Origin: Sipunculus nudus
Taxonomy: Eukaryota; Annelida; Sipuncula; Golfingiida; Sipunculidae
DNA length: 64,000 bases
Direction of reading: 5' to 3'
Assembly (NCBI GenBank): GCA_026874595.1
Contig: CM049308.1
Coordinates: forward strand, 48,553,327 to 48,617,326
Positions 44,501-50,500 of the stretch are shown here, one piece after another (position 1 is the stretch's first letter; every line of letters begins with the position of its first letter). The notes beneath the pieces were generated by a model. The model searched no databases. It saw nothing but the letters and a program-made list of their open reading frames with translations, and was not told the origin of the DNA. The translations under genes and the position numbers were made by a program.

Positions 44501-47500
44501 GGATTACTTCTTGATTTTAGAACAGTTTTGAGCAATGGAGTGGAAATAGGTTTAAAATTAAGGAAATACATTTCAAACAAAAACAATTTTTGTATTACGC
44601 TTGGTGGTTGGGGTGATATGAGAATAAATGTATACTGCTCCCCCTGCTCCCCAGTGACCCATTACCAATCAGGTGAGCAGAGAGAGCTGCACTGAATGAC
44701 CTCCAGTGACCAAAGTAGACTTCTTGACAATGCAAATGAATAGAATAAGAGCCTCCAAAAAATTCAATAACTAGCCTAATTTTGGAACTTTTATTTTCAA
44801 ATATCAGATTTTAACAGATTAAATGCATATTTGTACATATTGTGTGACATTTAAATCCACAGTACTTACATGAGAAAAACATGCCGTTGGGATACCGGTT
44901 TTATATTTATGCTAATAACTTAAAAAATTTGCTAAGTTCTGATCTGATGAAGTTATATCCCTGAAAAAAACTCTAGCTTCAACAATTTTCATGTTAAGTG
45001 AGTAAATACCTTACCTGATTTTTTTTACAAGTGCTTTATGTTTAGGCCCATTACTTGAAGAAATTACACAATACTGACCATATTTCTGGTATGTACATAG
45101 GAAATAATTAGAGGAATATTTGTATTAAATATGATAAAAAACAGATCAGTGGTTTTGATGTTAGGCAGTCTTAACAACTGGTTTTATATGGGAAATTGAG
45201 GTCTTTCCTTATTATCTCGAAGGAACGAAGTCAATGATCAAATTTTCGATATGGTAGGAGAACTTAGGGACATCTTACCTTATGCTGAATGTTGGATTTT
45301 TAGGTCATGCTTTAAAACATGCCCTGTTAACTGGTGACTAGCCGGACAATGGACCATTACTATGCACATTTATAAAGTAATCTACCTCATGAAAATTTAT
45401 ACAGTTATCTTCCTCGTGAAAATTTATACAGTTATCTTCCTTGTGAACTTTTAAACAGTTATCTTCCTCATAAATGTTTACACACTAATCTATGTTTTCT
45501 AAGCAAGACATCGTACATTCATTATATCAAAAGCTGTATATTTTTTTCATCAGATATTACCCCTGAAGTGATCACTACAGACTGGAATCGATCAAAGACT
45601 GGCTTGACTGCTATGGATGCATCCATACAGCTGAAATGCATGATGGGATTTGGTACTGTAGGTGTCCTGTCATCAAATGGCTCGATAATCAAAGTGAAAC
45701 CTGTAAGGACAGAGAATGATGGTAGCCATCAATATGTAACCACAAGGCACAGAGCACCAATACCCACAATGCCAACTGGATCCCTTGAGATTCTAGACTG
45801 ATAACATGATGAAACCCCTCTCTAAATTGGCTTTAACAAGTAATTAACCTAACCACCACAGCCCACATGCTCTGCCCTTTTTAACTGCCGGTGCCGCAAA
45901 GGTTTCCGTAGAACTCCTCTGTGCCAGGAATTATGATTTGGTCACACGTGAACTGCTGCGCCCTCATTTTGGGTTGACCTCGGACCTTTCCTCTCTGCAC
46001 AGGTTGTGCCATCTACTATCAGGTCACAGCTGCGATAATGCTAAAATGATGTTAAGGCAATAACTTGAAAACAATTTCAGGTAGGGTCACCAAACCTGCA
46101 CCTTTGATGCACCTTATCAAGCACTAAGTCTAGTTTGGACATGGATGACCCTGACTCATTTTTCAAGGTCACAGCAGTGATAATGCTACAATGATGTAAA
46201 TGCAAAAACTCAGGTAGAACAATTCAGGTAGAGTCACCAAACCTGAACCATTGATGCACCTTATCAAGCGCTACGTCAAGTTCAAATGTGAATGACCTTG
46301 ACTCATTTTTCTTGGTCACAGCAGCGATAATGCTAAAATGATGTTAACAAAATCGAAAACTATAATCATGTTCATGTGGTAGATATCCATGCTAATATGC
46401 AACACATCTCACTCTATTTCCCTGTACCACTCATTCCATGCCTCACTACACCCGTACCACTCTGATTTTGGCAGATACACTTAGTCGCTTTCAACTACCC
46501 ATATCTAGTTATGCTAATGAGCTCCCATAATGCTCATATACGGAAGGCCTTCCATGGCCATGGTTGCAAGATCTGTTAACAAGACAATAGTGATGTCACA
46601 AAGGTCGATGAAGTATGATGTCGCATTGACAGACGTCATCAGCTAGAATTACTATATCTCTGTTCTCCTGGAATGAATATATTGCAATAATTGTGAAGTG
46701 TCTTGCCATATTTTGGATTATTTCTCTCATACTTACATGCCAGGTGAGACATTATTATACAGTCGGTAGTCTGTAGAATGGCTTCTGCAACCTTTTCCCT
46801 TGAACATTTTATAGTGTCTCCTCTGTATAAAAAATATCCCGGAAAACATGTCGACACAGATACTGGTACAGACTACACATGTTCTGTTTGGGAGAGTCAC
46901 CCAAATAATGCAAATTTTGCGCTAATCGGGTGATTGACTCTTCACATTGCCCAGGGTAACTTGATGATTGCTCACAGTTGCTCTGCTCATGATTATTCAA
47001 TGGATGAATATGCTATTAAGGTCACATAGAGTTCATAGATAGGTCAATTATGCTTTAACTTCATGGCATACTTCTGATCAGCTTTAGGGTTAAAATGTAT
47101 CCAGCTGAAGTCTTTTTGTTAATGCAAAATAAGCAAACCTTTAACTTTAAACAAAAGAAAACCTCAGTGCCACCAACCTTTAGCATATGTGCTGACCAAG
47201 GTGGCAAAATTGGAAATAAGAGTTAGCGGAGAGAAGTCTTGGATGTCTGTGAGCTCTAACGTTCTGAGGAGGGACCGCAGCCGTTCTGCGCAGAACCTGA
47301 GAAATGATATATCATAACATATTATAACATATCACTGACATATAAGAGATTTTCTACTATTATGCACTTTTTCTCCAGTCACCTGACAGGTTTCGACTGA
47401 TGCACACTTTTGATCTTCACTCACATGTCAGATTTTCTACAGATGCACACATTTTATTCAATTACCTGACAGGTTTTCTGCTGATACATAATTTTTCTCC

Positions 47501-50500
47501 ATTATACTAACAGGTTTCCTATTGATGCACACTTTTGATCTCCATTCACCTGACAGGTTTTCTACTGATGCACACTTTTGATCTCCATTCACCTGACAGG
47601 TTTTCTTTTGATGCACACTTTTGATCTCAATTCACCTGACAGGTTTTCTTTTGATGCACACTTTTGATCTCCATTCACCTGTCAGGTTTTCTTTTGATGC
47701 ACACTTACGATCTCCATTCACCTGACAGATTTTCTTTTGATGCACACTTTTGATCTCCATTCACCTGACATGTTTTCTTTTGATGCACACTTACGATCTC
47801 CATTCACCTGACAGATTTTCTATTGATGCACACTTATGATCTCCATTCACCTGTCAGGTTTTCTTTTGATGCATACTTATGATCTCCATTCACCTGACAG
47901 GTTTTCTTTTGATGCACACTTATGATCTCCATTCACCTGACAGGTTTCCTTTTGATGCACACTTATGATCTCCATTCACCTGACAGGTTTTCTACTGATG
48001 TACACTTTTGATCTCCATTCACCTGACAGGTTTTCTACTGATGTACACTTTTGATCTCCATTCACCTGAAAGGTTTTCTATAATTGCACACTTTTTCTCT
48101 AGTCACCTGAAAAGGTGACTATTAATGCACACTTTTAATTTCTATTCACCTCATAAGTTTTCTACTGATGCACACTTTTTCTCCATTCACCTGACATGTT
48201 TTCTGCTGATACATATTTTTTCTCCAAACACCTGACAGGTTTTCTACTGATACATAATTTTTCTCCAATCACCTGACAGGTTTTCTACTAATACATAATT
48301 TTTCTCCAATCACCTGACAGGTTTTCTACTGATACATAATTTTTCTCCAACCACCTGACAGGTTTTCAACTGATACATAATTTTCCTCCAATAACCTGAC
48401 AGGTTTTCTACTGATACATCATTTTTCTCCAATCACCTGACAGGTTTTCTATCAATACACATTTTTTCTCTCAACTCACCTGAGAGGTTTTCTTTCAATG
48501 CAAACTTTTTGAGAACAGTCTTTCAGAAAAGATGGTGGACTTTCCTGTACAACATGTTGAATTCGAAGCCTTGTTTTAAGGTACTCAACGAAGCGTTTCA
48601 TGAAGGCAACAAAGTGCTCAGCATTGCGAATATTCCCTGGAACAGCCTCTGCTCAAATACAACAAAGTCTCTCATAATGATGATATATTTAATTCCTTAT
48701 GAGTAGAGATACTCTGATAACTGGGAGTATGACCCATTTTACTTGTAAATGAGGTATCCTTGAATACTTGTTTTTAAAACAAAAAAGTGACCCATGGGTC
48801 ATGACGCTCAGCTGACTAGGAAGACATTCACAAAAGGAATTTAATCATCTGAATGCTTAATTTTGTATGTGGTATCCCCATTCAACTGTAGCAACTGAAG
48901 TTCTTCAAAATCAACCAAAAGAAAATATTTCATAACAACATGTCAAGTAATTCCCATTAAATCTAGTGTTTTTGTATGCAGTCAGCTCCGCTAAGAATGA
49001 CCATGCACATTTTTGAAGGACATCCCAGGATGTCAAGACAGAAGATTCTAGGTCCAACAGTGAAGTTTTGTACCCTGTCTGATTATGTGGGTGCATAAAT
49101 TATGTTTTTGACTTATAGCATGCAAAATATAGGTCATCATGATCTAAATTCAGGTTTCCATAGAGATTTGCCCAAGACTTCCCTGTATGTCACATCAGAA
49201 CATTCTAGAGCTAGCGGAAACAATTTATGTCTGTCTGACTTTCAGGGTGCTAAAAATCATGTTTTTGGCCCATAATTCACAGAATAGGTCACCATGACCT
49301 ATTTTCAGGTTTTCATGCAGATTTACCCAGGACCTGCCTGAATGTCATGTTAAAAGAATCTAGGCCAAATGGATACAATTTGTGCCCCTCCTGACTCTCT
49401 TGGTACTTAAAATTATGTTTTTAGCTCGTAGTTCGCAAAATATAGGTATCCATGACCAAATTTCAGGTTTCCAAGGAGACTTGCCTAAGGCCTTCCTGGA
49501 TGTACAGTCAGAAGTTTCTAGGTCTTAAGGTAATGGTCTGTGCCCTATTACTTAAGGGCCAGAATGCTTCATCTGAATGTTTCAAAAATTGAGAAAAAAA
49601 TTGTGTAAAAATTAAAAAAAAATAAAGGTTGCACCACCAGTCTTCAGGAACCGATGAAACACTTCATGATCAATATGCATGGACAGAATCATGGTAATCA
49701 ATGCAATAGTTATTCAGATAATGGAGCTTTTGAATCAAATTTTTAATTATGCTTGGGGGGGGGGGGGTACTTTTGAGTCCCATAGCTCAGAGGATACAGG
49801 TCACAGTGACCTAATTTCGGTTTCCAAGGAAATTTTTATGACCACCATGGGTTTCTTGTTAGAAGATTCTAGGCCTAGCTGATACCTTTCCGGCCCTATC
49901 TGACCAAGTGCTCAAAATCATATTCTCAGCCTGTAGTTTGCAAAATATAGGTCACCAAGACCTATTTTCAAGTTTCATAGTAGATTTGCCTAGGGCCTCC
50001 CTGGATGTACAGTGAGAAGTTTCTAGGTCTAACGGTTACAATTTTTGCAAAATATAGGTCACCGTGACCTTATTTCAAGTTTCATAGTAGATTTGCCTAG
50101 GGCCTTCCTTTATGTACAATTAGAAGTTTCTAGGTCTAATAGTTATGATTTTTGCCCTGTTATTGACAGACTGCTTCATCTGAAGGTCTCAAAAAATGCG
50201 TGAAAATTAGAAAAAAATAAGGTCATGCCACCAGTCTTCAGGAAATGATGAAACACTCCATGATCTAAATGCATGGAAAAAATCATGGCTATAAAAGCAT
50301 TAGTTATTAAGATACTGGAGCTTTTGTATCAAACTTTTAATTATTCTTGTGGGGGGGGGGGGGGTACTTTAAAGCCCAATAGCTTGGAGGATGCAGGTCA
50401 CAGTAACCTAATTTCAGGTTTCCATGGACTTCAGTTGGAAGTTTCTAGGTGCAGCGTTTATGCTTTGGCCTCTGTTAATGGAAGGGCAGACAGACAGAGG

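Follow-up and report, generated by a model that had tools for sequence, protein, structure and literature searches.

Most of an ERCC2 intron consists of copies of its own exon-intron junction: a probable mirage-type minisatellite in Sipunculus nudus

Can an intron be built almost wholly from copies of its own 5' splice site, and is such growth a property of splice donors? The question is raised by an intron of ERCC2/XPD, a gene that lies in part on the minus strand of the 64,000-nucleotide stretch of Sipunculus nudus DNA analysed here (the window; host genome 1.43 Gb). With a human ERCC2 protein sequence as the tblastn query, residues 158-610 were matched by 13 hits in the window, and one more short exon was placed by eye. 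Exon f and the exon after it were identified as ERCC2/XPD from PDB XPD chains (best E 3.9e-43), in agreement with tblastn, and exon f used as a query gave 1 genomic match. The intron between them (47297-48479, minus strand) is 1183 nt long and reads CAG/GTGAGT ... TTTCTCAG/, where slashes mark splice boundaries. The features of this locus, and of a second array in the same gene, are as follows:

48480..48648, minus strand: ERCC2 exon f, 169 nt; the repeat unit derives from its last ~31 nt (XPD homology; start read from the sequence)
48474..48482, minus strand: real donor CAG/GTGAGT, end member of the array (sequence; presumed to be the site used)
47383..48479, minus strand: 26 junction-derived units of 41-43 bp (TRF and unit alignment)
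47335..47382, minus strand: degenerate 27th unit (limits by eye)
47297..47334, minus strand: acceptor-side tail that ends in TTTCTCAG/ and is by eye not unit-like (sequence)
47172..47296, minus strand: the following ERCC2 exon (FCAERL...), its far limit approximate (PDB XPD chains, tblastn)
11672..11764, minus strand: ERCC2 exon termed exon 13, source of array 2 (tblastn)
11352..11701, minus strand: second donor array (array 2), eight 44-bp copies, of which 11672-11701 is the exon end itself (TRF)

Starting at exon f, the units of the first array (array 1) measure 43, seven times 41, 43, 41, thirteen times 43, 41, 41 and 42 bp. These 26 units span 48479-47383, or 1097 of the 1183 nt (93% of the intron), and by eye the degenerate 27th comes next. 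TRF placed the array at 47365-48509 with a period of 43, 27.2 copies and 86% matches. The intron limits given in the original prediction proved exact, and its approximately 26 units of 41-43 bp were recovered by TRF and unit alignment. It had also placed a 41-bp class near the exon and a 43-bp class farther away, which is roughly right, but the first unit next to the exon measures 43 bp and the 41-bp class appears again at units 24-25. Read-through from exon f meets an immediate in-frame stop (CTC AGG TGA), as had been claimed.

Each unit of array 1 corresponds to ~31 nt of exon end plus 12 nt of intron, with an exon identity of 0.84; unit 1 is identical to the end of exon f at 26 of 31 positions. 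The 3'-terminal 40 nt of exon f scored 22 against the 43-bp consensus, a value reached by none of 2000 shuffles (maximum 13-14) and by none of 2927 random 40-mers from the window (maximum 14). The ends of the remaining 13 ERCC2 exons, which are placed approximately, scored 4-8, and in a sliding comparison along exon f the score rose at its end only. Because the end of exon f is conserved in PDB XPD chains (VCI-RKPLR), the exon is the source of the unit. Derivation from the exon f end, as originally predicted, is thus upheld by these scores, but the copied stretch is ~31 nt long and not ~36 nt. The same anatomy supports the placement of the real donor as the end member of the array, where splicing presumably occurs.

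Introner elements are near-identical introns dispersed through a genome. A 258-bp piece of array 1 matched the genome at its own locus only (6 overlapping matches, in a search that skips very common words), and an introner element was therefore ruled out. Identity between units fell from 0.870 at distance 1 to 0.758 at 15-25 units apart, and this higher identity of neighbouring units is what local turnover predicts.

The unit of array 2 consists of the last 30 nt of exon 13 followed by GTAAGTCCCTCTCT, 44 bp in all, and is present in eight copies. The exon end is intact in the unit (identity 1.00), and here too read-through leads to an in-frame stop. We infer that array 2 is younger than array 1. 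Like other young arrays of identical donors, it (11352-11701) provides a natural test of spliceosome choice among equal sites.

The copies in array 1 had been read as decoys that lost strength, with a +5 G found in the real donor alone. Predicted U1 pairing was -11.7 kcal/mol for the real donor and -0.7 to -8.4 for the 26 copies, which carry A (16), T (7), C (2) or G (1) at +5. The single G is at 47424, where CAT/GTGAGT has kept the +5 G and lost the -1 G, so the real donor is not alone in having a G at +5. Other copy donors read GTGACT, GTGGTT, GTGTTT, GTTATT and GTAATT, and GT is retained at 25 of the 26 sites. The original letter is found in at most 1 of the 26 copies at +5, +7, -5, -17 and -24 (5 of the 40 positions tabulated); because the other four have been replaced as thoroughly as +5, drift in an old array suffices. 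At 7 of its 8 sites, the real donor included, array 2 reads CAG/GTAAGT. Copies predicted to be stronger than the real donor make up all 9 in array L057 and 4 of 9 in L058, both from elsewhere in the genome. At least one copy was predicted to equal or exceed the real donor in strength in 14 of the 16 arrays measured (the exceptions are array 1 and L043), a biased sample in that 14 of the 16, including L057 and L058, were found via strong-donor patterns, and the two arrays in the window disagree. The decoy claim therefore fits array 1, where the real donor outranks every copy in predicted strength, but fails as a rule, given the perfect sites of array 2, a +5 replaced no more than four other positions and the stronger copies in L057 and L058. 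Weakening of donor copies is not a rule.

L057, whose real donor CAG/GTATGT is predicted to be weaker than all 9 downstream AAG/GTAAGT copies, is a good case for asking which copy is spliced.

Objects of this anatomy are known as mirages in amphioxus, for which Canestro et al. 2002 is reportedly an earlier source. In a later paper, mirages are tandem repeats that span exon-intron boundaries, described at Adh3 and at the globins BflGb6 and BflGb9; they lie at both boundaries, are unstable, leave regular splicing undisturbed as judged by RT-PCR, came previously from few amphioxus loci and are linked to intron gain (PMC3087553). The original prediction had recognised no described class of such introns, a statement that the published mirage work overturns (PMC3087553). 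Array 1 has the minisatellite-sized tandem units, the boundary-spanning unit and the copies with splice signals that characterise mirages, and this genome likewise has arrays at both 5' and 3' boundaries (L061 and L068 on the acceptor side). The anatomy is the same as in the amphioxus cases, here known from one assembly's sequence; what differs is the genome, the 26 diverged copies that fill the intron and the presence in several conserved genes. Judged by its sequence, the ERCC2 array appears to be the same kind of object, long and diverged; new here are the different genome and the many genes. Among the matches listed in our literature searches, PMC3087553 alone concerned amphioxus mirage minisatellites, none reported junction arrays in molluscs (most subscription papers lie outside this coverage), and nothing useful turned up about the ERCC2 junction in humans. 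That this anatomy recurs in another animal, in conserved genes and at donors as well as acceptors, suggests that introns can lengthen in this way quite generally.

Several other repeats invite comparison. The unit of the IFI6 (6-16) minisatellite is 12 bp long, and Turri et al. 1995 reportedly described this minisatellite as having multiple splice donors. Zhuo et al. 2007 are said to have described introns from tandem arrays, the new introns having matching boundaries; set against this account, the ERCC2 array would have expanded from one boundary. The IFI6 minisatellite units serve as alternative donors (PMC4526556). Like the ERCC2 array, that repeat is an exon-end minisatellite supplying repeated donors, but the IFI6 copies are used, whereas those in ERCC2 are candidate donors. 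Internal tandem repeats at exon-intron boundaries alter intron structure in human duplicated genes, which are recent primate duplicates (PMC2812944), whereas the genes here are conserved (ERCC2, TOM20-like, PKA RI, DOCK). In humans, 792 introns lie within tandem repeats, and dual-specific splice sites are described in genes like UBC (PMC10809524). Both this class, as described there, and the ERCC2 array are repeats that carry AG/GT inside genes; UBC-like introns are a whole number of units long and have a repeat copy as their acceptor as well, whereas the ERCC2 acceptor lies outside the array.

To find donor arrays elsewhere in the genome, we searched with patterns made up of three perfect donors in a row: CAGGTRAGT, AAGGTAAGT or GAGGTRAGT. 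Among the matches listed, which cover part of the genome, these yielded 21 + 8 + 12 = 41 separate arrays, one of them in the window; array 1 is absent because its copies have decayed. Exon anchoring was accompanied by protein homology in 11 (two of them weak), judged by eye in 13, not evident in 15 and undecided in 2. The 11 exon-anchored donor arrays with homology are:

L036: PH (E 0.016, weak)
L038: ABC_membrane (3.4e-5) and MRP2/ABCC2 (PDB, 9e-9)
L045: LRR (1.3e-12)
L046: MAS20/TOM20 (5e-12)
L050: Kunitz (4.3e-20)
L058: ASXL (PDB, 3.1e-11; Pfam ASXH, 5.6e-4)
L071: PKA RI (PDB, 8.6e-25)
L072: annexin (3.2e-8)
L075: Arv1 (0.0025, weak)
L077: ABCB10 (PDB, 3e-12; Pfam, 1.3e-4)
ERCC2 array 2: tblastn homology to human ERCC2

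Some of these Pfam matches score under the curated cut-off; in the alignments of L038, L058, L071 and L077 the homology continues up to the final complete codon ahead of the donor. The 13 that are exon-like by eye are L033, L035, L039, L042, L043, L051, L056, L057, L073, L074, L076, L078 and L082, and a search of 12 of them (L074 was left out) returned no convincing protein homology. Those in which exon anchoring was not evident are L032, L034, L037, L040, L041, L044, L047, L048, L049, L052, L054, L055, L079, L080 and L081, and L053 and L059 were left unclassified as their arrays extend beyond the examined piece. Thus 24 of the 39 resolved arrays look exon-anchored, 13 of these by eye only, a figure at which exon-anchored arrays may exceed what plain tolerance at donors would give. 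A fixed exon share of ~0.7 of the unit, considered for 14 arrays, was dropped when the 9 arrays of the GAG replicate ranged from 0.11 to 0.79.

Among the longest junction arrays is L077 (C3:96557479-96566827), in which a 59-bp unit copies an ABCB10-like exon end over ~9 kb. A micro-exon reading of this array at 96.56 Mb was ruled out by that exon end.

Junction arrays are also present on the acceptor side. The acceptor pattern gave 11 arrays among the matches listed, and their 3' ends were examined. Two are acceptor-side arrays on exons with homology:

L061: DOCK (Pfam, 3.9e-31; PDB, 1.4e-19)
L068: C-type lectin (2.3e-9)

Two more, L062 and L063, are exon-anchored in appearance, without a Pfam match, and the remaining 7 are not exon-anchored, although the L069 array may run on. 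Because arrays also straddle acceptors, the phenomenon is junction-spanning and its growth is not donor-specific; the DOCK and C-type lectin arrays contradict the proposal of a donor-specific class of introns grown from their own donor.

We therefore favour, at a probability of about 0.85, the reading of array 1 as a mirage-type minisatellite that arose from a tolerated, junction-straddling tandem duplication and then expanded, with splicing presumably confined to one site. A short tandem duplication would have straddled the junction of exon f and its intron (~31 nt of exon and 12 nt of intron). The upstream copy would keep the exon and its donor intact, and every further copy would be intronic and removed with the intron; we propose that this intronic position of the extra copies made the duplication tolerable. 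Expansion and divergence would follow as in minisatellites generally, through slippage or unequal exchange and turnover among neighbours, until at least 93% of the intron was filled. Splicing would use the exon-proximal end member, and an in-frame stop would be met if the intron were retained or another copy used. The anatomy, the exon origin, the own-locus unit, the similarity of neighbours and the recurrence at donors and acceptors are all observed features of this reading, to which we add a likely mode of expansion, age and splice-site usage. Most simply, tandem duplications would occur everywhere and persist where they straddle a junction, because the additional copies turn into intron.

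Against this explanation, the real donor of array 1 is its strongest site, as decoy weakening predicts: active donors could seed copying, and selection could then weaken the copies so that the real donor alone is used. None of the 26 copies equals the real donor, and triples of CAG donors (968 places against 296 for the reversed motif) and AAG donors (371 against 69) point the same way. However, the direction is opposite for GAG triples (165 against 541) and for the acceptor motif (170 against 753); the single motif gave 26,382 against 19,426. Because a few long arrays account for most places and there is little excess per array, with similar densities among the matches listed (21 donor arrays in ~302 Mb, 4 reversed-motif arrays in ~76 Mb), we rejected donor enrichment and claim none. 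Acceptor-side arrays, the unexceptional replacement of +5 and the perfect sites of array 2 also argue against growth specific to donors, which we regard as improbable. Slightly more improbable is a functional decoy array, whose copies would sometimes be used and whose stop-containing isoforms would lower or tune ERCC2 expression. The GT kept at nearly all copy sites, the stop met on read-through or copy use, and the precedent of repeat units as alternative donors in IFI6 (PMC4526556) would suit such a role, but donor positions in array 1 are no better preserved than other positions of the unit, and the periods show no frame preference (a multiple of 3 in 7 of 16 arrays). We give least credence to the idea that tandem duplication of an AG/GT site created the intron itself (Rogers model), leaving the array as a remnant. 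By eye, exon end and acceptor have 8 letters, TCTCAGGT, in common, and the mirage paper proposes mirages as a route to intron gain (PMC3087553); such short sharing is, however, common at AG/GT sites, and the acceptor-side tail does not look unit-like.

A wider reading is that junction-spanning arrays are pervasive in this genome and still make its introns grow, and that wrong splice choices could tune expression. We hold this tentatively and consider it rather doubtful. Extrapolation from the part-genome matches listed, with the sizes of C5-C7 guessed, gives ~150 arrays with at least three consecutive perfect donors, of which possibly more than half lie on exon ends, and the count rises once decayed arrays like array 1 are included. 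If true, the genome would be a natural experiment in which the spliceosome picks the first of identical donors or the last of identical acceptors in an exon-identical context, and wrong choices would yield stop-containing isoforms.

Several ERCC2 arrays lie near intron 5' ends without being exon copies. These are a 30-bp array at 37326-37643, ~9 nt past a donor (score 6, equalled by 607 of 1000 shuffles), a 27-bp array at 45368-45471, ~90 nt past exon 8 (371 of 1000 shuffles as good), and a 35-bp array at 51782-51942, ~150 nt past exon 4 (655 of 1000 as good). A 33-bp repeat of ~148-149 copies (11785-16693) fills the intron end just upstream of the exon at 11764. It was ruled out as junction-derived at the exon 13 acceptor (153 of 500 shuffles as good); an earlier high score arose because the last array unit lay inside the query. 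Finally, a family of 180-bp tandem units is common to 6074-7820 and 35078-35442, ~28 kb apart.
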